From Actinomycetospora sp. NBRC 106378 (GTDB lineage: Bacteria; Actinomycetota; Actinomycetes; Mycobacteriales; Pseudonocardiaceae), in assembly GCF_030269685.1 (NCBI RefSeq), contig NZ_BSTT01000008.1, positions 124,001 through 188,000 of the forward strand: DNA of 64,000 nt. The letters are read 5' to 3'. The notes beneath the pieces were generated by a model. That model saw only the letters and a list, made by a program, of their open reading frames with translations, was not told the DNA's origin and did not search any database. Within the stretch, counting starts at the first letter, position 1; every line of letters starts with the position of its first letter. Shown one piece after another: positions 14,261-26,038 of the stretch. Both the position numbers and the translations under genes were made by a program.

Positions 14261-14329
14261 CTTGAGTCCCGGCGCCGTAGGTCACCGGCCATCGTCGGTG
14301 GTCCGCGACCGGCTCGAACCTCCTAGAGC

Positions 14330-15853
14330 TCAGGTCCCCTCGCCCTCTCCGAGCAGGCGCGGCCGGCGGTCGAGCGCCCGAGCCTGAGGGGAATCGGCGC
14401 CCTCCGTCGCCGCGACCTGACGTCGTAGTTGACGAAGAATCGCAAGGCCAGTCGAGGTCGCACCCCTGGCGAGGTGCAGCCCTGCCAGCACGGCGCGCGC
14501 CTCGGAGAGGCGTGCGTCGTCGGGACCTGCGTGGTCTACGAATCGCTGCAGCTGGGGCAATGCGCTCACGTGATCGCCGATCTCGGCGTAAGCGAGGCCG
14601 GCGTCGTGATCGCAGTCCAGGGAGAGCAGGTTGGTAGGTCCGAGAAAGCGTCGGTACTCGCGGCCCACAGCAATGAAGAGCGGTGCTGCGCCTCGGAACT
14701 CGCCCGCGGCGAACAGTGTGTCGGCGAGGCAGTGACGCAGCCGCACCTCGACGAAGGCGTCCTCGGCCTTTCGCCGAACGGCGGCCTCGACCAGCTGGAC
14801 GGCCTCGTGCTCACGCCCTTCCTGCACGAGCCCGAGCGCTTCGTCCCGCAGAGCGTCGACCTCCGCCTCGGTCAACGGCTGCCCCACCGAATCGCGCTCG
14901 CTGGCCGACGTGCGGGGCGGGAGGAGAGGACGGCGGAAGGGACGAGTTGGGTCCTGCTCGGTCTCGGGCTGGTCGCCCGTGCACCACGGCTCCAGCACGG
15001 CGTAGACCTGCTCGGCGCTGGGGCGCAGTCCAGGAGCCTTCGCCAGCATCGCCAGGACGAGCTCGTCGATCACAACTGGCACAGCGGCGACGGCGTCTCG
15101 AACGGACGGCGGGGCGGTCTGCAAGTGGCGGGCCCGCAGCGGCATCTCGACGCTGTCGTGGAAAGGCGGGTCTCCGGTCAGGAGCTCGCAGAGCACGCAC
15201 CCGAGCGAGTAGACGTCCGAGGCGGCGGTCACCGGCTGACCGAGGTGTTGCTCCGGCGACATGTAGGCGGGGGAGCCGTCGGTGCAGTCGACCTGGGTCA
15301 ACCGCGGCAACGCACCCTGGCCGTGCAGGATCGCGATCCCGAAGTCGAGCACCTTCACGAGCCCGCTGTCCGTCACCACGATGTTCGCCGGCTTGACGTC
15401 GCGGTGGACCACGTCGACCCGGTGGACGTCGACGAGCACCGCAGCGATCTGGGCAGCGACCGCAGCGGCACGAGCGACAGAGAGGTCGGTGGCCTCGGTC
15501 CGGTCCAGCACCGTCTGCAGGGTCGAGCCTCGCAGGAGCTGCATCACGACCCAGAGCTCCGCAGCTCCGTCGCTGCCCGCGTCGTAGACGGACGGGACGC
15601 CGGCGAGCTCCAGCCGTGCGGTCGTCCTGATCTCGCGCAGGAAGCGCTCACGGTCACGAGTTCGCGCGTCCCGCAAGTCCCGGGCGCCCGGAACGTCGTC
15701 GCCGACGGGCGGGTGCGGGTTGAGGAGCTTGATCGCCACGGCCCGGTCGAGGTGCTCGTCATAGCCCTCGTACACGACGCTCATGCCTCCGCGGCCGAGG
15801 ACGCTGTCGATGCGGTAGCGGCCGGCGATCCGCCGAGCCTGATCCTCCGTCAC
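14330..15853 (-). CDS. Serine/threonine protein kinase with TPR-like C-terminus
   Basis: About 507 residues. The kinase domain spans residues 10-280: glycine loop LGRGGMSVVYEG, Lys in AVAIKLL, catalytic loop HRDVKPANIVV, DFG in VLDFGIAI, and the P+1 region GSPAYMSPEQH. Residues 330-500 are helical and resemble tetratricopeptide repeats (HCLADTLFAAGEFRGAAPLFIAVG, DHDAGLAYAEIGDHVSALPQL). There is no transmembrane segment, unlike most PASTA-type actinobacterial kinases, so it acts in the cytoplasm. The GTG start overlaps the rhuM stop by 4 bp (GTGA), making it the last gene of the type I restriction-modification operon. The coupling argues for a role linked to the restriction system; an abortive-infection type response is an inference only. 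Confidence 0.9.
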   Translation of the reverse strand: MTEDQARRIAGRYRIDSVLGRGGMSVVYEGYDEHLDRAVAIKLLNPHPPVGDDVPGARDLRDARTRDRERFLREIRTTARLELAGVPSVYDAGSDGAAELWVVMQLLRGSTLQTVLDRTEATDLSVARAAAVAAQIAAVLVDVHRVDVVHRDVKPANIVVTDSGLVKVLDFGIAILHGQGALPRLTQVDCTDGSPAYMSPEQHLGQPVTAASDVYSLGCVLCELLTGDPPFHDSVEMPLRARHLQTAPPSVRDAVAAVPVVIDELVLAMLAKAPGLRPSAEQVYAVLEPWCTGDQPETEQDPTRPFRRPLLPPRTSASERDSVGQPLTEAEVDALRDEALGLVQEGREHEAVQLVEAAVRRKAEDAFVEVRLRHCLADTLFAAGEFRGAAPLFIAVGREYRRFLGPTNLLSLDCDHDAGLAYAEIGDHVSALPQLQRFVDHAGPDDARLSEARAVLAGLHLARGATSTGLAILRQLRRQVAATEGADSPQARALDRRPRLLGEGEGT

Positions 15854-16875
15854 GTCGGCTCGTCGTCCCCGGGTGGACGCTCGATCGCGAGCAGTTCCCG
15901 CAGGTCGTCGGCCTCCTCGACCGCGGCCTTCTCGGCTTCCCGGGCGCGACGACCCTCGTCCCACGCGACGTACCGCTCGCCGACCTCGATCTTCATTCGC
16001 TCGGCGGACACCCGTCCCGGCCCGGTGAGCACCTCACGCTCGTCGAAGGCGAGGAAGCGGTCGGTCTGAGCGATCCACTCGTCCATGAGGATCGTCTGCC
16101 GTCGCTCCGCGCGGTCCTCGGCGAAGTCGAGGAAGCGAGTGACCAGTCGATTGAGCTGCGCGAGCTCGTCCTCGTGAAGATAGTTCTTCGAGATGACGAC
16201 GTCGGACTTCCGGATGCGCTCGCCCGCCCAGGTGGTCAGGCCCAGCGTGGGCGACGTCGGGTCGCAGCGCTTCGTCACGAGCTCGGCAGCGGTGTGGCCG
16301 GTGATCGCGTAGACGAGCTTGTTCTGAATCTTCGCGAAGAAGGCCCGTGCGGTTTCAGACGTTCCGTCGTAGTCCACGCTGGCCACGGCGAACAGGTCGC
16401 GCACCTTTTGGTAGAAGCGCTTCTCCGACGCCCGGATGTCCCGGATCCGCGCGAGCAGCTCGTCGAAGTAGTCCGCCGCCGGGTCGCGCAGGCGCGGGTC
16501 GTCAAGCGCGAAGCCCTTGACCAGATACTCGCGAAGCACCGTGGTCGCCCACTGCCGGAACTGCACCGCGCGCGGGCTCGAGACCCGGTAGCCGATCGCG
16601 AGGACCATATCGAGGTTGTGGACCTTGACCTGCCGTCGGACCTGCCGCCGCCCTTCCTGAGCAACTCTCAACTCTGAGTTGACAGTTGCCATCGTCACCT
16701 CGCCGTCGGCGAGCACGCGCCCGGCTATCTGCGCGATGTTCTGCACCGATGTGCCGTAGAGCTCCGCGATCTCGGCCTGCGACAGCCACACCGTCCCTGC
16801 GACGGGGCGGAGCTGGACGCGCGGCCCACCGTCGGGAGCCTGGTAGACGACCATCTCGCCCCGAGACTCGGTCAC
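15850..16875 (-). CDS. RhuM-family protein of the restriction operon
   Basis: A 341-residue protein with the RhuM signature: an N-terminal KilA-N/Bro-like winged segment (VWLSQAEIAELYGTSVQNIAQ), then NLDMVLAIGYRVSSPRAVQFRQWATTVLREYLVKGFALDD, FDELLARIRDIRASEKRFYQKVRDLFA, and the C-terminal helical region. RhuM proteins (named after a Salmonella pathogenicity-island gene) are often embedded in type I restriction-modification operons, but their biochemical role is not established. The GTG start overlaps the hsdR stop by 4 bp and its own stop overlaps the kinase start by 4 bp, so it should be made together with both. Confidence 0.9.
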   Translation of the reverse strand: MTESRGEMVVYQAPDGGPRVQLRPVAGTVWLSQAEIAELYGTSVQNIAQIAGRVLADGEVTMATVNSELRVAQEGRRQVRRQVKVHNLDMVLAIGYRVSSPRAVQFRQWATTVLREYLVKGFALDDPRLRDPAADYFDELLARIRDIRASEKRFYQKVRDLFAVASVDYDGTSETARAFFAKIQNKLVYAITGHTAAELVTKRCDPTSPTLGLTTWAGERIRKSDVVISKNYLHEDELAQLNRLVTRFLDFAEDRAERRQTILMDEWIAQTDRFLAFDEREVLTGPGRVSAERMKIEVGERYVAWDEGRRAREAEKAAVEEADDLRELLAIERPPGDDEPT

Positions 16876-19800
16876 CGCGTGCCATGCCCCTCGGTCTCGC
16901 GCCGCATCTCCGCGCGCAGCCGGCCCAGCGCCTCCTCGCGGGCGGGCTCCCGGATGATCCGGTAGGCCCGCTTACGGGCAGCCGCCTTGATCGCCTTCTG
17001 GAACTCCTCGTTGTCGAAGTAGCGCTTCATGAACTCGGTGTTGCGCTCGGCGTTGTCGGCGACGATGTCGTCGAGCTTGTCGTCGGCGACCTGCCCAAAG
17101 CGCTCCTCGGAGTTCACCAGGGCGATCTGGTTCATCGCCGGGTCCTCCACGAGTCCGACGACCTGCTGGTAAACGAGGATCTCGTCGGAGGTGCCGAGGT
17201 CGAAGCCGAACTGGTCGTTGAGTTCCGCGATGACGTCGGCGAGCCGGGCCATCTCGGGTTCCTGGACACCCCCGCCGTCGGCGGCATGCCCGCGGACGGT
17301 CTGGTCACCGTCGGGTGTGAGAGAGAGGTCGTGCCGACCGGTCTCCTGGAGTCGGAAGTGGCTGAGGTCGGCGTCGCCGATGTCGACGGTCGCCGTGGGG
17401 CGGCCCGGAAGGCGCAGCAGGAGGAGCCGGCCGTACTGGTAGAGCCGCTCGAGCTCCTCGTCTCCCCAGTCGAGGACCTGGGCGAGCAGCCCGTAGGCAC
17501 GGACGTAGCCGTGCAGCTTCGACCGGAAGTCCTCGCGGGTGTCGACGTCCTCGAGCTGGACGAAGCGGTCAATCGGCGGCGTGAGGTACTCGTGCAGCTT
17601 CGCGTGGAGCTTCTTCTCGACGGCGGGTGCCTGCCGACCGGTCGGGGCCTCCTCGAGGACCCGCATGAACGACTCCATCTCCGAGGGGTGCAGCAACCCG
17701 AAATCCATGACCTCCCGCTGCTTGCGGTAGAGCAGGTTCGGGTCACCCTCGGTGGTCAGCGTGGTCTCGAACCAGGGCGCGAACGAGCTCTTGATGGCGT
17801 CAGGGGTGTTCGCGAAGTCGAGGACGCGCACGTCGTCCTGGTCCTTGAGCGGATGGGTGCGGTTGAGCCGCGACAGGGTCTGGACCGCCGCGACGCCGGT
17901 GAGGGCCTTGTCCACGTACATCGCGCAGAGCAGCGGCTGGTCGAACCCGGTCTGGTACTTGTCGGCCACGACGAGCAGGCGGAACTCGGTCTGCTCGCGC
18001 TTCGTGGCGTCGGGGTCGTCGGCCTTGGTGTAGGCGAACTTGCGGGGCAGTTCGACCTCCGGGAACCCGTTGATCATCGCCTCGCTGCGCTCGACGCCCG
18101 TCGCCTCGTCCTTGAGCGTCCCGGAGAAGGCGACCAGAGCGCCCAGGTCCGGACGACCGACGTCGTCGTGAAGGTGCCGGTGAATCGCCTGGTAGAGGTC
18201 GAGCGCCCGCTGCCGGCCGTCCGTGACCACCATGGCCTTCGCCCGCCCGCCGAGGCGCTCCTCGATGTTCTCGACGAAGTCCGCGACGATCAACTTGGCC
18301 TTCTGCCCGAGCGACTCGTGGTGGGCCTGCGCGAGCCGGACGAGCTTCGCCTTGGCCTTGCGCTCGTCGACCTCCGGGTTGCCGGTGTCGGACTCCTGGT
18401 TCTCGACGGCGGCGTTGCGCAGCCGCCACTTGGTCTCGTAGGTGAGGTAGTTGGCGAGGACGTCGAGGATGAAGCCCTCGTCGATCGCCTGGCGCATCGA
18501 GTAGACGTGGAACGGCTCGTAGACCGGCTCGCCCGTGCGCTGGTCCACGCGTGCGGGGTCCTTGGTGCCGAACAGCTTCAGCGTCGGCGACGTGGGCGTC
18601 GCGGTGAAGGCGAAGTACGACAGGTTGGGCTGCCGCCCGCGGGCCCGGATCAGATAGGCGGCCTCGCTCTCGTCCTCCCCACGGACGGCGTTGGCCCCGA
18701 CGGCCTGTTTGATCCGCAGCGCCGCGTCGCCGCCCTGAGAGGTGTGCGCCTCGTCGATGACGACGGCGTAGCGCCGGTCGCCCAGTCCCTTGCCCTCGAT
18801 CTTGTCGAGCACGAACGGGAACTTCTGCATCGTCGAGATGACGATCTTCGATGTGGAGTCGGTGAGCACGGCCGCGAGCTGGTTCGAGTCCTCGTCGATC
18901 TTCCGGACGACGCCGGGCTCGTGGTCGAACTGGTAGATCGTGCGCTGGAGCTGACGGTCGAGGACCACGCGGTCGGTGACGATGATCGTCTTGTGGAACA
19001 CCGGCTGGTTGTCGATGTCGAACAGGTTCGACAAGCGGTGGGCGAGCCAGGCAATCGTGTTCGACTTTCCAGAACCGGCCGAGTGCTCGACGAGGTAGCT
19101 GTGGCCGGCCCGGTGCTGCCGGGCATGCTCGACCATCCGCGTCACGGCGTGCCACTGGTGGTAGCGCGGAAAGATGCGCTCGGCCGAGTGCGGGCTGAGT
19201 TTCTTGCCCTTCGCGTCGACGTCCTGCACGTGCAGGAAGCGCTGCAGGATCTCTAGCCACGCATCACGCTGCCAGATGTCGCGCCACAGGTAGTCGACGG
19301 CGTACGAGCCGTCGGCAGGGGGCGGGTTGCCCTTGCCCCCGCTCTTCCCGGGGCCGTTGCTCCCGACGTTGAAGGGCAGAAACCGGGTGTCCCGGCCGGA
19401 TAACCGGGTAGTCACCGCGGCCTCGTCGGGGTCGACCGCGAAGTGCACCACGGCGCGCTTGGCGAACATCAGGTCGTGCTGGTCGCGGTTGCGGTACTGC
19501 TCCTTGGCCTGCTCGATACCCTGCCCGGTCATCGGGTTCTTCAGTTCGATCGTCGCGGTTGGTAGACCGTTCACCAAGAGCGCGAGGTCGAGGGAGTTCT
19601 TCGGCGCCTTCGCGCTGTAGTACAGCTGGCGCGCGACCGTGAGGACGTTGCCCTCGTACTCGCGCAGCGCGTCCTTCGCCAGCGTGTGGCCAGGCCGGAA
19701 GTAGGCGAGGTCGACCTGGACCCCGCGATCCTTCACGCCGTGCCGAAGGACATCGAGCGTTCCTCGAGCGTCGATCTCCACCGCCACGCGCTCGACGAAT

Positions 19801-20012
19801 CGACGCTGCGCGAGATCCTGGCTACCGTTGATCTCGATCAGCCGATCCCACGCCTGCTGCTGTGTGCGGCCGATGAACTCGACAAGAGCGCCGGTGTCAA
19901 GCCCCAAGTCCGTCCGAAAGAACCCAGGTGACGCCTTCTCCCAGCCGTGCTCGACGAGCTCCTGCTCTACCCGATCCTCGAACGCCTTCTCGGTGTGCAG
20001 TCCAGGACTCAT
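16872..20012 (-). CDS. hsdR: Type I restriction endonuclease subunit R
   Basis: A 1046-residue motor-nuclease. The N-terminal PD-(D/E)xK nuclease shows Asp142 in SLDLALLVNG and the TIELKNP strand (Glu156, Lys158). The translocase has Walker A HSAGSGKSNT (residues 310-319), the DEAH box VIDEAHTSQGGD (420-423), FAFTATPTSPTLKLFG and the late motif LSRLNRTHP. The C-terminal ~150 residues form the helical region that contacts the methylase. Together with HsdM2S it should cut unmodified DNA after translocation. Full length with no frameshift. The ATG overlaps the hsdS stop by 4 bp (ATGA). Confidence 0.95.
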   Translation of the reverse strand: MSPGLHTEKAFEDRVEQELVEHGWEKASPGFFRTDLGLDTGALVEFIGRTQQQAWDRLIEINGSQDLAQRRFVERVAVEIDARGTLDVLRHGVKDRGVQVDLAYFRPGHTLAKDALREYEGNVLTVARQLYYSAKAPKNSLDLALLVNGLPTATIELKNPMTGQGIEQAKEQYRNRDQHDLMFAKRAVVHFAVDPDEAAVTTRLSGRDTRFLPFNVGSNGPGKSGGKGNPPPADGSYAVDYLWRDIWQRDAWLEILQRFLHVQDVDAKGKKLSPHSAERIFPRYHQWHAVTRMVEHARQHRAGHSYLVEHSAGSGKSNTIAWLAHRLSNLFDIDNQPVFHKTIIVTDRVVLDRQLQRTIYQFDHEPGVVRKIDEDSNQLAAVLTDSTSKIVISTMQKFPFVLDKIEGKGLGDRRYAVVIDEAHTSQGGDAALRIKQAVGANAVRGEDESEAAYLIRARGRQPNLSYFAFTATPTSPTLKLFGTKDPARVDQRTGEPVYEPFHVYSMRQAIDEGFILDVLANYLTYETKWRLRNAAVENQESDTGNPEVDERKAKAKLVRLAQAHHESLGQKAKLIVADFVENIEERLGGRAKAMVVTDGRQRALDLYQAIHRHLHDDVGRPDLGALVAFSGTLKDEATGVERSEAMINGFPEVELPRKFAYTKADDPDATKREQTEFRLLVVADKYQTGFDQPLLCAMYVDKALTGVAAVQTLSRLNRTHPLKDQDDVRVLDFANTPDAIKSSFAPWFETTLTTEGDPNLLYRKQREVMDFGLLHPSEMESFMRVLEEAPTGRQAPAVEKKLHAKLHEYLTPPIDRFVQLEDVDTREDFRSKLHGYVRAYGLLAQVLDWGDEELERLYQYGRLLLLRLPGRPTATVDIGDADLSHFRLQETGRHDLSLTPDGDQTVRGHAADGGGVQEPEMARLADVIAELNDQFGFDLGTSDEILVYQQVVGLVEDPAMNQIALVNSEERFGQVADDKLDDIVADNAERNTEFMKRYFDNEEFQKAIKAAARKRAYRIIREPAREEALGRLRAEMRRETEGHGTR

Positions 20013-21250
20013 GACTCATCTCCGTGCGCGGTAGAGACGTCGATCTGCCCGGTGACAGCAGCCGTTACGAATGCGCGCTGGCGTTCCCGTAACAGATACG
20101 AGGACTTGCTTACCAACGCACTTAGGGGAGCAAGTGCACTTATCTGTTCTGCTATCTCAAGCTGCGTCCGGATCGCCACACCTGGAATAGGGATGGATCC
20201 AAAAAGACCCCAGTTCCTGAAGTCCACCGCCCTCTCTCGCGTGCTCGTAGCAAACAATGGAAGGTAGTCGTTTGTGGCGAGAATTCGGAGAAGTCTGGCG
20301 TGAAACTTCCCCGAATTCTCGCCGATTGCCGTGCAGACATGATAGACCGAGCTGCAGTTACCATCCGTCTCAGCCTCTCCTATCGCGCCAGCAAATCCAT
20401 CAAGTCCGTGAATTACGACATCGGCCACTCTAACGCCCTGTCCCTGAGGGTTAGCGCTCGCACTCTCAGTATAACCACGAGTGGCCCTCATGCTTCGGGC
20501 CGTTACTTGGCCGTCCCGAAACGCCGTCACGACCTGACCCTCATTCATGACAGGTCTGGTCACCTTCTGAAGCACACGCTTGATCGGTACAACCCCGTCC
20601 TTATCATCACGATCGAGCCGAGCCAATCCGATCAATTGCAAAATCTGAGCATCTACACGCTCAGACGCGAGAGAATACAAACGACTTAACGATTTCTCGG
20701 CTTTCTGTGCACGGCAAGACTCGGACAAAATCGCATCCGCTATCTTGCACTGCTCGCTCCAGGGAGGGAGCGGGATTCTTATGCTGTCTAGATCGGGCAT
20801 ATATATCGTGCGATGAGTCGAACCGAACGCTAATCTTCTCCATTCAGGGGCCATCGACCGCAGGACCCCGAGAAGGTAAATCGAGTTGAGCGACGGTCCA
20901 CAAGTCCACGTAACGAAGTCCTGTGTTGTCGCCGCAGCGACACCCACCCGAAGGGTGTATCCAACAGACGCAGTCCTCGAAAGCATTACAGTCCCCGCCG
21001 GATGGACTTTGGCAGAACTTCCGGCGACACCGAGAGCACTCACTTTCTGCTCTGTGTCGATCAGCGGTTCCAGGGTATTCGCGGAGCGCGCCCCGTCAGG
21101 AATTGTCACCCATGGGATGTTGCAAAGTCTCCAGAAGTCTGGGTTCGACCTGTCTGGAGTGTGTCCGGTCCCCATTCTCGCGACCGAATTTAGTGGCACG
21201 ACTCTCCAGTGGTTGGGAATTTGGGGTGCCCAACCAAGAAGGGTCTTCAT
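20009..21250 (-). CDS. hsdS: Type I restriction-modification specificity subunit S
   Basis: A 413-residue protein with two target-recognition halves separated by conserved helices. The first half starts IPNHWRVVPLNSVARMGTGHTP and ends PLPPWSEQCKIADAIL. The second half ends with the matching IPIPGVAIRTQLEIAEQISAL and the helix SYLLRERQRAFVTAAVTGQID. It sets the bipartite DNA target; the target itself cannot be deduced. Base composition is clearly less GC-rich than its neighbours, with codons such as AAT, ATA and TTA that are rare elsewhere in the window, suggesting recent exchange of recognition domains. 4-bp overlaps with hsdM upstream and hsdR downstream. Confidence 0.93.
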   Translation of the reverse strand: MKTLLGWAPQIPNHWRVVPLNSVARMGTGHTPDRSNPDFWRLCNIPWVTIPDGARSANTLEPLIDTEQKVSALGVAGSSAKVHPAGTVMLSRTASVGYTLRVGVAAATTQDFVTWTCGPSLNSIYLLGVLRSMAPEWRRLAFGSTHRTIYMPDLDSIRIPLPPWSEQCKIADAILSESCRAQKAEKSLSRLYSLASERVDAQILQLIGLARLDRDDKDGVVPIKRVLQKVTRPVMNEGQVVTAFRDGQVTARSMRATRGYTESASANPQGQGVRVADVVIHGLDGFAGAIGEAETDGNCSSVYHVCTAIGENSGKFHARLLRILATNDYLPLFATSTRERAVDFRNWGLFGSIPIPGVAIRTQLEIAEQISALAPLSALVSKSSYLLRERQRAFVTAAVTGQIDVSTAHGDES

Positions 21251-23217
21251 CGAGCCACCTCGCTCAAGAGCTTCTGAATCTGCATTTCCAGGTCTTTGAG
21301 TTCAGTGTCGATCTCAACCAGAGAGCGGGGCGGCTGGTAACGGAAGAAGTACCGCGTCAAAGGAATTTCGTACCCAACCTTGGTCTTGGCGACGTCGATC
21401 CATGCGTCTGGCACATGTGGCACGACCTCTCGCTGGAAGTACTCATCGATGTCCTCGTGGAGCGGGACATTTTCGTAGTCGCGCAAGTCAGCGTCAGGCA
21501 GTGGCGCGCCCTTGAACTTCTGCAACTCACCATTTGAGTCGGAGACGGCCACTGCCCCCCAGATAGCCTTCTGCACCGGCGCACTGCTCGGCCACAGCAC
21601 GCCCACCTCCTTCGCCGCAGCGCGCAATGCAGTCAAGGCGTCGTTCTTCGTCCACCACACCTGCCCGAGGAGCGGACGCAGCGCGTCGACGAAGGCGTCG
21701 CGCGGCTCCCATCTCGCGAGTGGCTTCGCGACCTTCAGCGCGGCCAGGGTCTCGTCGGTGATCTCGAAGCGCTGGCGAAGCGGGCGCTCGACGGTGATCC
21801 GGTGGTAGCCGAAGTCGCGGGTGCGGAAGACCTTGACCTTGTCATGGTCGGGGTGGTCGGCGTCCGCAGCAATCGCCACGGCGTCGTCGTAGACACTGGC
21901 AATGTGGGCGATCTGCTCTTCGCTGATCTCCTTGCGCTTGTCGCCGAGCGACTTACGCATCTTCACCCACTGGTCGCGGGCGTCAAGCAGAATAACGCGG
22001 TCCTTCAGCGCCTCGGATTTGCGATTGGCGAGGATCCAGAAGTAAGTCGAGATGCCCGTGTTGTAGAACAGTTGGTCGGGCAGGGCGACGATGCCCTCGA
22101 GGTAGTCGTTCTCCAGGATCCACTGTCGGATGCGCGACTCCCCCGACCCCGCTGCCCCAGTGAACAGTGGCGAGCCGTTGAAGACGATCGCGAGCCGGGA
22201 GCCGCGCTCTTCGGAGCGTTCCATCTTCGAGATCATGTGCTGGAGGAAGAGAAACGAACCGTCGTTGATCCGCGGCAGACCTGCGCCGAACCGCCCTGCG
22301 AAGCCGAGCTCGGCCTCAGCGTCGACCTCGTTCTTAATCTTCTTCCACTCCACGCCGAACGGGGGGTTGGCCAGCATGTAGTCGAAGGTCCGGCCGCCAT
22401 ACGCGTCGTGACTGAACGAGTTGCCGTGGGCGATCTCGCCGCGCCGGTTGCTCATGAGCATGTCCGACTGGCAGACCGCCCAAGACTCGGCGTTAACCTC
22501 CTGGCCGAACAGGTAGACCTCGGCGTTCGGGTTGACCTCCTTAATCGCGTCGTCAGCTGCCGCGAGCATGCCGCCGGTCCCGCAGGCCGGGTCGAGGATG
22601 TTGACCACCTGGCCCTCACCGGCGAGCGACTCCGAGTCGAGCAGCAATCGGACCATGAGGCGGATGACCTCGCGAGGGGTGAAGTGCTCACCGGCGGTCT
22701 CGTTGGAGTCCTCCGCGAACTTCCGGATGAGGTGCTCGAACACGTACCCCATGTCGTGGTTCGAGAGCTTCTCCAGGTCCGTCATCTCCTGGAACCGGGC
22801 GACCACCTTGTAGAGGAGCCGATTGCCGACCAGCCGGGTGATGACGGCGTCGAACTCGAAGTTCCCCAAGATGCGCTGCACGTCGGGCGAAAACCCGGAC
22901 ACGTAGTCGCGCAGGTTCTTGGCGACGTTGCCGGAATCGCCGGCCACCGAGGCGAAGTCCTGGTCCGAAACGTTGTAGTACGGAACGCCCGATGCCTTGC
23001 GGAGCAGCAGGTCCTTCTTCTGCACCTCGCTGAACTTCTCGGCCCGGTCGCGGACCTTTTCGCGCGTCGGTGCCATAGTCGCATCGAGGCGGCGCAGCAA
23101 CGTGAACGGCAGGATCACGCCGCCGTACTCGTGCCGCTTGTAGTCGCCGCGCAGCAGGTCGGCGACCGACCAGATGGCCGCCGCCATTGACGCGTGGCTG
23201 GGGGCACTCGTCGTCAC
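21247..23217 (-). CDS. hsdM: Type I restriction-modification N6-adenine methylase subunit M
   Basis: About 656 residues. The N-terminal HsdM helical domain (SVADLLRGDYKRHEYGGVILPFTLLRRLD) precedes the SAM-binding motif I NILDPACGTGGML (about residue 207) and the catalytic NPPFGVEW motif (about residue 285), so the methylase looks active. The C-terminal extension (about residues 520-656, with HEDIDEYFQREVVPHVPDAW) is typical of the larger HsdM subfamily and is probably involved in S-subunit contact. I chose the GTG at 23217, which overlaps the upstream stop by 4 bp (GTGA); the longer frame back to 23415 is low-complexity Arg/Pro-rich antisense-like sequence. Confidence 0.94.
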   Translation of the reverse strand: MTTSAPSHASMAAAIWSVADLLRGDYKRHEYGGVILPFTLLRRLDATMAPTREKVRDRAEKFSEVQKKDLLLRKASGVPYYNVSDQDFASVAGDSGNVAKNLRDYVSGFSPDVQRILGNFEFDAVITRLVGNRLLYKVVARFQEMTDLEKLSNHDMGYVFEHLIRKFAEDSNETAGEHFTPREVIRLMVRLLLDSESLAGEGQVVNILDPACGTGGMLAAADDAIKEVNPNAEVYLFGQEVNAESWAVCQSDMLMSNRRGEIAHGNSFSHDAYGGRTFDYMLANPPFGVEWKKIKNEVDAEAELGFAGRFGAGLPRINDGSFLFLQHMISKMERSEERGSRLAIVFNGSPLFTGAAGSGESRIRQWILENDYLEGIVALPDQLFYNTGISTYFWILANRKSEALKDRVILLDARDQWVKMRKSLGDKRKEISEEQIAHIASVYDDAVAIAADADHPDHDKVKVFRTRDFGYHRITVERPLRQRFEITDETLAALKVAKPLARWEPRDAFVDALRPLLGQVWWTKNDALTALRAAAKEVGVLWPSSAPVQKAIWGAVAVSDSNGELQKFKGAPLPDADLRDYENVPLHEDIDEYFQREVVPHVPDAWIDVAKTKVGYEIPLTRYFFRYQPPRSLVEIDTELKDLEMQIQKLLSEVAR

Positions 23218-24920
23218 GCAGGTTCTCCTTGGGTTCGGGGCCGAGCCGCTCCAACGGGGCGGAGCGCGCCCGTCGTCAGGCCGTGGACGGTCTGGTCGAG
23301 CACGGTCGCCGTCGTACGGGCGAGCCGGGACGTGAGCTGATCGAGGTCGAGGAGGCGCCGGTAGGCGTCGCCGTAGCGCCGTTGATCGCGCAGCGGGAGA
23401 CGGGGAATCCGGCATCGACGCAGGTCAGAGCGGCTCGGGCCGCCATGCAAGGTCGCGGCCGGGAGCGCCGCCACCTCGGGGCGCAGGAACAGGGCGACGA
23501 AGTGCGCGTCGAGGTGCTCGGCGCTGATGGCCAGGACATGTGCTGTCTCGGCGCCCGCATCCGCGCGATGGCGTGCGACCGACGGCGATTGTCCTCGGCC
23601 GCTCACCAGCACGTCACCCTTGTGGATCGCGGGGCCCTTCTCCTCGTGAGAGGCGGACCTCCGCGGGACGATCGTCAGTGCGCCGCGCCGTTCGAGCTCC
23701 GAGAGGGCCACGAGGTCACGGGCACCGAGGGTGGCTGCGGTCACCGGGGCATGCAGCACGGCGCCGACCTGCTCGTAGAGCGCGCGCAGGCGTGCGGTCA
23801 GGTCTGCGAGCCCCTGGGCGGTCGATGCCGGGTCTGCCCCGACGTGGCGGGCGGGATCGAGCTCGGTGACGCCGTCGAGCAACGCGACGCGCGGGACCCG
23901 ACGCACCAGCGCCGGGTCCGCGTCGTCGACGAGCCGGTCCCACGCCTCCCGCGACATCGGTAGGTCGGCGGGATCGGCCACCGCCGAGACATCGACCATG
24001 CAGACGTCCTCCCCCCGCCGCGGAGTCTGCCGCAGCACCCACACGTGGAGGTTCGGGGCTCCGGGGATCGATGGCAGCCCGATGACGCGGTCGAGGGCAC
24101 CGCGCCGGACCAGGTCGGCGCGGACGGCGCTTCCCGACGACCGCGTGGCCGCGTAGGCCGGGACGGCCACGACTGCGGTGCCGTGGGGTCGGAGCAGCTC
24201 GAGACACCGGAGGGCCCATGCGCCGACGGCGTCCTCGGTAGCAGCTCCGCGCGGCGGTCGATCGCCCGCGAGACAGACGACCGCTTGAGCTCGTGCCGTA
24301 GGTCGGGTCCTCGCGACGTCGTAGCCTTCCGCGAACGGGTGCAGCCGCAGCGCCCGGCGTGCCAACTCGACCGACTCCTCATCGTCGTCCCGACCGATAA
24401 GGGCGACCTCATCGCGGAACCGATCCGCCGCGGCGAGCAACCTCTCGCCGGCCCCGCACGCCGGATCGAGGACGATCGGTCGATCGGTCTCCCATGGTTC
24501 GTCGGTGTCCACGAACTCGGCAACTTGTCCGGAGCCGCGCTCGTCCTCGGCTTCATCAGCACCCTCGTACTCCTCCAGATCGGGAGAGTCCCGCAGGAGC
24601 GAAACCATCGCGCGAGCCAAGGTCTCGACAGCTCCACCCTCAAGGTCGTCGACCGCGTTGGCTGGCGTGGTCTCGTCCTCGGCCGCCCGCGCCGAGACCT
24701 CGGCGTTGCTCGGCTCGTACGCGGCCAGCAGGGTGCTCTTGCCGTTCTCGCCCATCCACCGTGCGACGGCGCTCCACGTGAAGCGGGGGCTCGGTCCGGA
24801 CGTCACGGGCGAGGGGAAGTCCGGGAAGCGGGTGCGCCAGTTCGTCACTGCTGCGCGCCCGACACCGACTCGACGGGCGATCTCGGCCGACGTCAGGAGA
24901 TCTTCGGGCGCATCAGGCAT
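23214..24920 (-). CDS. HTH + degenerate N6-methylase-like + specificity-like fusion, first gene of the RM operon
   Basis: About 568 residues. Residues 5-60 form an excisionase/MerR-like helix-turn-helix (LTSAEIARRVGVGRAAVTNWRTRFPDFP...FTWSAVARWMGENGK). The middle has a SAM-binding motif I (IVLDPACGAGERLL, about residue 152), but where the catalytic Asn-Pro-Pro-Tyr/Phe should follow it reads AGDRPPRG, so adenine methylation looks lost. The C-terminal ~200 residues resemble an S-subunit half: HKGDVLVSGRGQSPSVARH, HFVALFLRPEV, RIPRLPLRDQRRYGDAYRRLLDLDQL. It heads the operon and overlaps hsdM by 4 bp. The ATG at 24920 lies 6 nt after TACTGT with no ribosome binding site; a GTG at 24935 is an alternative. 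Possible roles are regulator, accessory specificity subunit or DNA sensor. Confidence 0.75.
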   Translation of the reverse strand: MPDAPEDLLTSAEIARRVGVGRAAVTNWRTRFPDFPSPVTSGPSPRFTWSAVARWMGENGKSTLLAAYEPSNAEVSARAAEDETTPANAVDDLEGGAVETLARAMVSLLRDSPDLEEYEGADEAEDERGSGQVAEFVDTDEPWETDRPIVLDPACGAGERLLAAADRFRDEVALIGRDDDEESVELARRALRLHPFAEGYDVARTRPTARAQAVVCLAGDRPPRGAATEDAVGAWALRCLELLRPHGTAVVAVPAYAATRSSGSAVRADLVRRGALDRVIGLPSIPGAPNLHVWVLRQTPRRGEDVCMVDVSAVADPADLPMSREAWDRLVDDADPALVRRVPRVALLDGVTELDPARHVGADPASTAQGLADLTARLRALYEQVGAVLHAPVTAATLGARDLVALSELERRGALTIVPRRSASHEEKGPAIHKGDVLVSGRGQSPSVARHRADAGAETAHVLAISAEHLDAHFVALFLRPEVAALPAATLHGGPSRSDLRRCRIPRLPLRDQRRYGDAYRRLLDLDQLTSRLARTTATVLDQTVHGLTTGALRPVGAARPRTQGEPA

Positions 24921-24926
24921 GCAGTG

Positions 24927-24950
24927 ACAGTACACAGGGTTTGTGTGTAC
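24927..24950 (-). promoter_or_regulatory. Promoter with embedded dyad for the RM operon
   Basis: A perfect 7-bp inverted repeat, GTACACA-N7-TGTGTAC (24930-24950), overlaps a -10-like TACTGT (24932-24927 on the minus strand) that is 6 nt from the ATG at 24920. The position fits an operator for a repressor, perhaps the HTH protein of the first gene or a RhuM-linked regulator. Confidence 0.55.
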
Positions 24951-25061
24951 AGCGAGATGACAACTGGACCGCGTTCACCTTGTCTGCTACCTTCTCCGCG
25001 GGGTTGAGACGAACGGACCGCCCTGGACCTGACGTGGACCGACATGACGGCGCGTGGCACA

Positions 25062-25110
25062 CTAGGAGCCCTAGTTCCCCGCCGTCCTCCGGGATTGGCG
25101 GGGCTTTTTC
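25062..25110 (+). promoter_or_regulatory. Dyad plus intrinsic terminator ending at the NYN start codon
   Basis: CTAGG-AGC-CCTAG (25062-25074) is followed by CCCCGCC (25077-25083), a 13-nt loop, GGCGGGG (25097-25103) and CTTTTTC, ending directly at the ATG at 25111. A GC stem followed by five T is the most canonical Rho-independent terminator in the window, yet it lies before a gene rather than after one. It may be an attenuator or the end of a short upstream RNA. The ribosome binding site, if any, would be inside the stem. Confidence 0.6.
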
Positions 25111-25812
25111 ATGTCCGAGCAGCGTGACCGGCCAGACCTGCACGCCACGGTGGTCATCGACTACCAGAACGTGCACCTTGTGGCGCACAACCTCTTCGCG
25201 GCCAGCCGGGGCCTGTTGCAGCACGAGTCGCTCGTTGACCCGCTGCACTTCTCCAACCAGCTGATCCAGGCTCGGAACCGGTCTCAGAAGGACGGTTTCC
25301 CGTTGGCGTCGCTGCGGCGGGTCCTGGTCTACCGCGGTCAGCCGTCCCCGGCGCACGATCCGGTGCCGCACGCCCGCAACCAGGCTCAGCAGGCGCAATG
25401 GGAGCGGGACGCGCGGGTAAGCGTCCACCACCGCCAGCTAAAGTACCGCTGGCGGCGCGACCGCATGGGTGCCCTGATCCTCGACAGCAGCGGCAATCGG
25501 GTCCTGGAGCGCAAGCAGGAAAAGGGCATCGACGTCCTGTGCGCACTCGCGCTCGTGCGGGAGACCCAGCGCGACGACACCGACCTCGTCATCCTCGCCT
25601 CGCACGACACCGACCTCACGCCCGCCCTCGATGAAGCGCTCGACCTCGGGCGCGCTGTGGTCGAGACGTTCGCGTGGTTCGACGCGACCCAACCCCATCG
25701 GATCACCCAGCTCCGCCCGAGCACGCGCCGGGTGTGGAACACCCGGCTCGGCGAGACCGAGTTCGTCAACGCATGGGACCGCACCGACTACTCGAAGGTC
25801 GGACAGTCCTAG
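25111..25812 (+). CDS. NYN-domain (PIN-like) putative ribonuclease
   Basis: A 233-residue protein. NYN signatures are ATVVIDYQNVHLV (first Asp and Asn), LRRVLVYRGQP, QEKGIDVLCALALVRE (Asp) and TDLVILASHDTDLTPALDEA (paired Asp), the acidic centre of a metal-dependent RNase related to PIN toxins. It ends with a basic/aromatic tail. The ATG at 25111 abuts a terminator-like hairpin and has no normal ribosome binding site, so its expression is probably conditional. It faces away from the restriction operon (191 bp between starts) and its context suggests a defence role. No antitoxin gene is adjacent. Confidence 0.82.
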   Translation: MSEQRDRPDLHATVVIDYQNVHLVAHNLFAASRGLLQHESLVDPLHFSNQLIQARNRSQKDGFPLASLRRVLVYRGQPSPAHDPVPHARNQAQQAQWERDARVSVHHRQLKYRWRRDRMGALILDSSGNRVLERKQEKGIDVLCALALVRETQRDDTDLVILASHDTDLTPALDEALDLGRAVVETFAWFDATQPHRITQLRPSTRRVWNTRLGETEFVNAWDRTDYSKVGQS

Positions 25813-25988
25813 CGTTCCTGAACCCGAACCTCGGGTTCCCGACACAAGGGCTGGACCGGGGCCCATGACGACGAGGGCCTGGCCGCCGGCGAGGAGTAGG
25901 ACCGTTACTGACTGACCCGGTGTACCCCCCGTGGTTACCGGTCCAGCCCGACCCGCCGTCGGGGAAAGCAGCCGGTCTGATAGCCATC

Positions 25989-26029
25989 AGGGGAGGATTC
26001 GAGCGCTCTTGTGGCACGAGAGCTCCCCT
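25989..26029. terminator. Hairpin between NYN gene and mutB
   Basis: AGGGGAG (25989-25995) pairs with CTCCCCT (26023-26029), and the interior holds GCTCT/AGAGC and GTG/CAC arms. It lies 10 nt beyond the mutB stop in the 226-bp convergent gap, so it may terminate both sides. The rest of the gap (25813-25988) shows no ORF or tRNA. Confidence 0.45.
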
Positions 26030-26038
26030 CACGCCGGA

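Follow-up and report, generated by a model that had tools for sequence, protein, structure and literature searches.

The stretch of DNA analysed here, which we call the window, comprises 64,000 nucleotides of Actinomycetospora sp. NBRC 106378 (positions 124,001 to 188,000 of contig NZ_BSTT01000008.1), and it carries at 14330-24935 six minus-strand genes that open reading frame (ORF) calls and Pfam assign, in operon order, to MadL, HsdM, HsdS, HsdR, RhuM and a Hanks-type kinase. "MadL" is a name coined in the present analysis for the product of the first gene, a helix-turn-helix (HTH)/degenerate-methylase protein. A preliminary description, made from the letters of this DNA, had assigned the same six families to the same places, and the ORF calls and Pfam bear it out. 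We argue below that MadL, the three subunits of a type I restriction-modification (RM) enzyme and the kinase very probably constitute a real functional unit. The features of the locus are as follows.

14330 to 15853, minus strand: Hanks-type (PknB-like) Ser/Thr kinase with an alpha-solenoid (TPR-like) tail (PF00069, 1.5e-37)
15850 to 16875, minus strand: RhuM-family protein, an optional member (PF13310, 1.6e-102; PADLOC PDC-S05, 7e-136)
16872 to 20012, minus strand: HsdR, restriction/translocation subunit (SWI2_SNF2, 3.7e-25; HSDR_N, 1.8e-11; Walker A, DEAH and ELK motifs)
20009 to 21250, minus strand: HsdS, specificity subunit (PF01420, 2.1e-13; PADLOC PDLC03162, 3.2e-56)
21247 to 23217, minus strand: HsdM, type I modification subunit (PF02384, 9.3e-59; HsdM_N; PADLOC PDLC03029, 1.9e-246)
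23214 to 24935 (probable start ATG 24920), minus strand: MadL, with an N-terminal HTH, an N6-adenine-methylase-like domain and a C-terminus resembling a target-recognition domain (TRD) or half an HsdS (weak N6_Mtase match, 2.3e-4)
24930 to 24950, no strand: operator-like dyad GTACACA-N7-TGTGTAC, 10-30 bp before the MadL ATG

The junctions read GTGA, ATGA, ATGA, GTGA and GTGA, so that the five 4-bp overlaps reported earlier for the window are all present and all in frame. The HsdM and kinase ORFs open further upstream in ORF calling; the overlapping GTG codons at 23217 (HsdM) and 15853 (kinase) are plausibly the better start choices. For MadL the start is probably ATG 24920 rather than GTG 24935, as the latter sits within the palindrome.

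The gene and domain content of a type I RM system is present: an HsdM with S-adenosylmethionine-binding and NPPF motifs, an HsdS with a TRD, and an HsdR with endonuclease and superfamily 2 translocase domains. The HsdM motifs DPACGTGG and NPPF are intact and invariant across the 15 sequences of our HsdM alignment (alignment A1), and the HSDR_N, ResIII, SWI2_SNF2 and T1R_D3-like matches of HsdR all exceed their Pfam cut-offs, while its match to TIGR00348 (5.7e-58, 197 bits) lies under the cut-off of 284.55. By their domains and motifs, HsdM, HsdS and HsdR look complete.

The kinase domain is nearest to PknB and PknA, and in a structure search its best PDB match is the PknB kinase domain. An AlphaFold2 (AF2) model of the protein has a predicted local distance difference test (pLDDT) score of 87.7 and places the tail helices at residues 329-505. 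In an alignment of 57 kinases (the window's own and 56 of 85 usable relatives, picked for length and diversity), K42, the HRD at 150-152, K154, N157, the DFG at 170-172 and E201 are invariant; so too, in the linker between kinase domain and tail, are D301, P302 and P309. HRD and DFG motifs occur in 89 of 91 kinase ORFs, the remaining two being short frames. Hydropathy reaches a maximum of 1.88 in the window's kinase and exceeds 1.6 in 40 of 87 kinases, and this measure alone therefore leaves room for membrane segments. Because the AF2 model is confident, we read the hydrophobic peaks as probably being buried helices of the kinase fold. The soluble kinase with a TPR-like tail of the preliminary description thus stands as to its family and its alpha-solenoid tail; its solubility is something we infer in the face of ambiguous hydropathy.

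MadL matches, as a profile, solved M subunits (7vru_A, 4e-46) and, over a separate stretch, S subunits (5ybb_D, 5e-12). Its AF2 model (pLDDT 84.0; predicted template-modelling score 0.73) finds DNA adenine methyltransferases as its top PDB matches, with low TM values (7eew_A, E 1.4e-15, TMq 0.35). Motif I is retained in the window's MadL, and motif IV reads RPPR in place of NPPF/Y. This loss characterizes the window's clade, in which the NPP[FYW] of motif IV is found in 0/32 sequences as opposed to 40/63 elsewhere, and the DPxxGxG of motif I in 12/32 (the window included) as opposed to 61/63. With motif IV lost in 32/32 and motif I in 20/32, MadL in this clade is probably unable to modify DNA.

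Upstream of MadL lies the dyad. Usable upstream regions were available for 78 of 95 MadL loci. Of the 24 from the window's clade, 13 have a dyad made of opposed half-sites, GTGWAC/GTWCAC (shuffle mean 0.15, maximum 1), and all 24 have at least one half-site (shuffle mean 5.84, maximum 12). The pattern was picked after inspecting upstream words and the sequences are related, not independent, which makes the excess suggestive and no clean test. Folded as single-stranded DNA, the dyad does no better than shuffles (z -0.13), leaving support that is comparative, and a consensus promoter scan found nothing near MadL. MadL would most likely bind this dyad itself.

Linkage of MadL and the kinase to HsdM

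The same gene order recurs in more than 20 other genera, a recurrence that makes it more than chance. A profile scan with alignment A1 gave at least 577 confirmed HsdM loci, of which we took the best 80 (55-72% identity, nearest relatives by design), spanning Streptomyces, Nonomuraea, Frankia, Micromonospora, Nocardia, Kribbella, Saccharothrix, Actinomadura and others. MadL lies upstream of hsdM in 79 of these 80, the exception being L197, from a metagenome-assembled genome of Acidimicrobiales. The kinase lies downstream of hsdR, on the same strand and within the locus read, in 67/80; extended loci (L227-L231) place it just past the locus edge in L209 and L211 and, still on that contig and strand, 8-12 kb farther along in L173, L214 and L219. 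Five loci (L158, L160, L163, L166 and L177) end too early to judge, and the kinase is present in 72 of the 75 that are assessable, with L215 and L220 giving a short frame only. There is no kinase in the readable sequence of L168, L197 and L218; L168 is counted here as kinase-less, although its genome has a close kinase (L232) towards the end of a different contig and the gap may reflect a contig break. The membership of the kinase in the operon, as first proposed from the window, is thereby upheld. This is not the case for RhuM: a full-length member of its family by Pfam, it had been taken as an integral part of the operon and is found in only 2/80 of the closest loci, as an occasional insert. 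On these grounds, the core of the operon is MadL-HsdM-HsdS-HsdR-kinase.

The distribution of both genes over the HsdM tree points the same way. Of the 135 loci entered, 130 had an HsdM ORF of at least 400 residues and five were dropped, giving with the window 131 rows, some genomes being represented twice, in a quick tree with Shimodaira-Hasegawa-like approximate likelihood ratio (SH-aLRT) support and no bootstrap. A single branch (SH-aLRT 100, 100 rows) takes in every kinase row (84) and every MadL row (94). Outside it, counting only rows that extend 2.5 kb or more past hsdR (for the kinase) or before hsdM (for MadL), the kinase is found in 0/19 and MadL in 0/25. The branch has its exceptions: L197 has neither gene, L110 and L112 are long branches with no hsdR and neither gene, L111 has the kinase and no MadL, and five MadL rows have no kinase in the stretch read, three of the five having one further on. 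As far as this HsdM tree can tell, the association of kinase and MadL with HsdM seems to have arisen once. A single origin of the kinase partner itself is unsupported, as the kinase tree needs several context changes.

Seen from the kinase, the association is close for near relatives and looser for distant ones. Its C-terminal part alone (223 residues), searched at E 1e-5 against 394 genomes of the class, matched 32/394, self included. The 36 non-self places divide into 14 that adjoin hsd genes (L073 being decayed), 11 that follow MadL where the stretch read shows no hsdM/S/R, three that lack MadL and neighbour a RelE/UvrD-type helicase gene, and eight with none of these. Of the nine strongest matches one, L086, is a fragment; the other eight adjoin hsd genes. 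Close kinase homologues, then, mostly keep company with restriction genes (8/9), and the wider family does not (14/36). The preliminary description had staked its functional link on two things, that close homologues should not mostly occur apart from restriction genes and that the overlap into the kinase should not be peculiar to this strain; the first came out in its favour and the second did not.

The 4-bp overlaps, counted over the window and its relatives pooled, with some genomes counted twice, are common within the RM core (HsdM/HsdS 89/100, HsdS/HsdR 56/100) and at MadL/HsdM (35/95). At the remaining junctions they stand at 2/4 for HsdR/RhuM, 3/90 for HsdR/kinase and 1/4 for RhuM/kinase, the window being that one. 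The overlap into the kinase is thus nearly private to the Actinomycetospora strain of the window. Junctions coupled from end to end, as originally described, exist in the window and are not a conserved trait, and we have set aside translational coupling as proof of a unit; the link of the kinase rests instead on synteny and the HsdM tree.

MadL and the kinase also occur together apart from hsd genes. In a MadL-family set of 29 non-self loci (best genomes only, 1.5-kb flanks), 12 lack HsdM and have the kinase as immediate same-strand neighbour, five have HsdM next, one has the kinase on the opposite strand, and 11 have neither. These 12/29 loci, together with the 11/36 kinase-tail places that follow MadL, all without hsdM/S/R in the stretch read, suggest that MadL and the kinase may act as a pair combinable with various attack modules. 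At L080 (7084-15377), L081, L087 and L094, a MadL-like gene and kinase are followed by RelE/UvrD-type helicase and DUF262 genes, with no hsdM/S/R in the stretch read. Upstream in L080 is what we take to be a large helicase-like gene, and some of the gene names in loci of this type are likewise our presumption. By gene content, these four look like a second type of defence locus built on the MadL-kinase pair. At L083 (9502-19876) and L089 (30-10623) the same kinase family stands, without MadL, beside a RelE/UvrD-type helicase and a very large gene, presumably helicase-like.

Readings of the unit

How might such a unit work? We consider it about an even proposition that it is a composite anti-phage system in which a type I RM enzyme is joined to an alarm module of MadL and kinase, with MadL as putative sensor or controller and the kinase as putative output. 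HsdM, HsdS and HsdR, to judge from their intact motifs, would methylate sites in the host and, on DNA that lacks this mark, translocate and cleave. MadL would bind its own operator and serve as DNA sensor and controller, while the kinase, the output arm, would be quiet in healthy cells. The trigger would be an encounter of MadL or the RM complex with invading DNA, or its inhibition by an anti-restriction protein; once active, the kinase, serving as guard or back-up, would phosphorylate host or phage proteins and so halt infection. We infer which way the signal runs, what sets it off and what the kinase targets, and likewise growth arrest. The proposal draws on the near-constant positions of MadL (79/80) and the kinase (72/75), their confinement to one HsdM branch, the invariant kinase residues, the loss of motif IV and the dyad, and also on the hsd-free pairs, on genes of the abortive-infection family AIPR (PF10592) in 15/80 of the closest HsdM loci, and on precedents, namely PrrC and PARIS as guards of RM systems and kinases as suicidal back-up modules.

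Several observations weigh against this proposal. In the phylum sample, where HsdM was found at E 1e-100 in 39/396 genomes (self included) and all 39 non-self places were taken, the kinase accompanies only 3/39 (L108, L109 and L111); these are among the closest loci, and the rest are for the most part type I systems with neither kinase nor MadL. Five loci of that sample fall on the kinase branch, and two of them, L110 and L112, lack kinase, MadL and hsdR. Some relatives keep RM and MadL with the kinase lost or broken (none found in L218, ~140 residues left in L215), and some loci have long inserts between hsdR and kinase, which disfavours obligatory translational coupling. Outside the window's clade, 40/63 MadL sequences have a possible catalytic motif, making a pure sensor role impossible for the whole MadL family. 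The dyad is rare there, at 4/54 upstream regions (shuffle mean 0.14, maximum 2; half-site in 19/54, shuffle mean 9.81, maximum 17), and the binding of MadL to it is assumed. Finally, the 88 RM-linked rows of the kinase tree, a quick tree with several long branches, need six label changes, five of them forced by supported branches, and the RM-linked rows are interspersed with kinases from MadL pairs and helicase loci; kinases have therefore been exchanged between contexts, or pairs have split off from operons. At L215 itself, the kinase remnant lies at 18345-18623 while the matches to MadL, HsdM and HsdR stay long, a natural kinase loss.

A different division of labour, which we regard as unlikely although the strongest of the competitors, would have the kinase and MadL regulate the RM enzyme, the kinase phosphorylating HsdR, HsdS or HsdM to restrain or release restriction and MadL setting expression in the manner of a controller protein. 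In its favour are the confinement of both genes to one HsdM branch among the hsdM loci in the tree, the HTH of MadL with the operator-like dyad before it in the window's clade, and loci such as L218 that hold RM and MadL without the kinase. On the other hand, MadL-kinase pairs that have no hsdM/S/R in the stretch read imply a role for the pair independent of the RM enzyme, and other type I systems of the same HsdM family do without both genes (kinase 0/19, MadL 0/25).

Less likely still is that MadL forms a second, independent unit of modification and recognition, with HTH, M and TRD in one chain, such that two sites are read and the kinase is the restriction-like output of MadL, parallel to what HsdR is for HsdS. 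MadL does have a TRD-like region of its own, NPP[FYW] is intact in the 40/63 sequences outside the window's clade, and MadL-kinase pairs without HsdR would then be complete systems; within the clade, however, the loss of motif IV throughout and of motif I in 20/32 (the window keeps motif I) speaks against it. Very improbable is ordinary defence-island clustering, in which RM, RhuM and a kinase system would be neighbours with no functional tie, for although RhuM, AIPR, UvrD-type helicase and NYN genes vary around the core, the block is an insertion and the kinase tree shows exchange between contexts, MadL and the kinase hold their positions (79/80, 72/75) and track one HsdM branch, unlike the optional genes, and on this synteny and the HsdM tree we reject coincidental neighbours.

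The near-constant company of kinase and MadL in the closest relatives suggests a combined immune system that could cut foreign DNA and also send an intracellular alarm. We would go further only tentatively, to the idea that MadL and the kinase are a general plug-in alarm cassette of actinobacterial immunity, a DNA-modification subunit turned sensor, its methylase motif gone in some lineages, that drives a Hanks-type kinase, whether with HsdMSR, with DUF262 and a RelE/UvrD-type helicase, or alone; were this true, a kinase signalling cascade would set out from the sensing of DNA that is unmodified or invading. The common view of type I RM is of a stand-alone three-subunit enzyme, and what we describe here is a type I RM system with a near-constant methylase-like putative sensor and kinase arm, in an HsdM branch of many actinobacterial genera that is rarely without the two. 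Annotation would probably split the unit into "RM type I" and a single-gene kinase, as the matching PADLOC models would have it, and so miss it. Should the kinase be the output, its invariant catalytic residues and the few naturally kinase-less relatives would make this a clean system for asking how DNA recognition leads to protein phosphorylation, the same question that is posed by the Pgl and MADS kinases.

Relation to known systems

In composition the locus comes closest to MADS and to Pgl/type-2 BREX. The methylation-associated defense system (MADS), mad1-mad8, resembles it in combining an N6-methyltransferase, an HsdS-like specificity subunit and a Hanks-type kinase, going by the gene list of the models. 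Among PADLOC models, mad6 hits the kinase domain, mad5 hits HsdS, and mad2 hits both HsdM and the methyltransferase-like part of MadL; the 60-position model mad1 finds the HTH in two relatives of MadL. The NCBIfam equivalogs fall far short, however, with MAD6 (NF047741) scoring 132.8 bits on the kinase against a cut-off of 460, its best stretch in the kinase domain, and MAD2 (NF047738) 41.8 bits on HsdM against 720; MadL has no NCBIfam match, and MAD6 and MAD2 are the only mad-family names in the full NCBIfam lists of the six proteins. None of mad3, mad4, mad7 and mad8 is among the PADLOC matches listed (1e-3) for seven proteins, lists that are complete for HsdR, MadL and the NYN-like protein encoded beside MadL and hold the best 25 of 70 for HsdS, of 33 for HsdM, of 38 for RhuM and of 34 for the kinase. 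A genome search with the mad8 family was uninformative, matching in 296/296 genomes and 14/14 controls. The locus differs from MADS, too, in having a true HsdR and in the single fused chain of MadL. Membership in MADS is rejected on the MAD6 and MAD2 scores below cut-off and on the lack of mad3, mad4, mad7 and mad8 among the matches listed. The abstract of the MADS paper is said to mention "MADS-like systems", which could include relatives. MADS is mentioned in excerpts of three further sources (PMC12904381, PMC11842806, PMC12322248).

Pgl/type-2 BREX, with Pgl known from Streptomyces, is alike in joining a methylase-based self/non-self system to a protein kinase. PglW carries NERD and tandem kinase domains, according to an excerpt of PMC12839542. 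The PglW model covers only residues 64-305 of the window's kinase, at 50 bits against a cut-off of 990, which is short of the NERD and kinase architecture, and PglX, PglY, PglZ and BrxC are absent from the matches listed for the block proteins (Pfam, NCBIfam, and PADLOC with the best 25 for four of the proteins), so that the locus is not assigned to Pgl/BREX. PARIS, another system to be compared, is an ATPase/TOPRIM pair. PrrC (EcoprrI) and PARIS guard RM systems, and the likeness lies in a type I RM locus whose additional gene is taken to be a back-up for when restriction is inhibited (PMC12707154). Where those systems have an anticodon nuclease or the PARIS pair, the extras here are a kinase and a methylase-like protein. 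Their linkage to the RM operon is conserved in the HsdM loci and tree; in a guard they would also be triggered by inhibition of the RM enzyme.

Hanks-type kinases serve in defence as staphylococcal Stk2 and as PADLOC PD-T4-6, both filed as single-gene systems. The PD-T4-6 models are the best match of the kinase domain (7.2e-76); the window's kinase differs in its conserved operon context and in its own linker and tail. MadL finds its nearest likeness in PacII, which has two M chains and one S (7vru) and whose chain A is the best match of the MadL profile. In contrast to PacII and to a classical type I methyltransferase, the second M-like chain here has an HTH and a TRD-like region of its own, with motif IV lost in the window's clade. 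The preliminary description took a TPR-tailed kinase at the end of such an operon to be an undescribed unit, and no published description of a MadL-HsdMSR-kinase unit was found at the level of titles and abstract openings, a coverage that most subscription papers fall outside. The idea of a kinase arm is not itself new, given MADS and Pgl/type-2 BREX, and back-up or suicidal kinase modules are proposed in excerpts of PMC12839542 and PMC10853773.

Optional genes and the inserted block

AIPR-like genes stand beside the unit at L101 (7073-9271), L109 (16556), L111 (12074) and L069 (18588), those of L101 and L111 being identified by scan (PF10592, with a weak Mrr_cat in L101) and those of L109 and L069 by similarity. 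RelE/UvrD-type helicase genes occur in 11/80 of the closest HsdM loci. Among all loci with a long gap, a regulator gene with small partners is often inserted between hsdR and kinase, 17 such ORFs, among them L178 16598-18134, forming one cluster, mainly of opposite-strand genes, that we take to be of the XRE/DUF5753 type.

Two further features frame the operon.

14261 to 26038, no strand: block inserted between an SNF2-helicase gene and a methylmalonyl-CoA mutase gene, from flank spacing in sister genomes
25111 to 25812, plus strand: NYN-like gene, divergent from MadL, in the same insertion (PF01936, 0.0035, below cut-off; weak PADLOC HEC-09, 6.8e-5)

The gap between SNF2-helicase and methylmalonyl-CoA mutase genes is ~10-760 bp in 6/6 same-genus genomes with both flanks and 11.8 kb in the window; in the remaining 11 same-genus genomes the SNF2-helicase gene was not found at the cut-off, and these were left out of the flank comparison. 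MadL has no match at E 1e-3 in 17/17 other same-genus genomes. The adjoining flanks in the six judged sister genomes and the 17 genus members without a MadL match together indicate that the block at 14261-26038 is an insertion. ARAGORN finds no tRNA in the window. The NYN-like gene was rejected as a part of the system, for tblastn at 1e-4 across the collected loci matched its own copy only. In a genome of 6.3 Mb, the locus has a G+C content of 0.58-0.70 per 2 kb, as against ~0.74 in most of the window, and the lowest value, 0.58 at 20001-22000 around hsdS, possibly marks a recent swap of the specificity gene.

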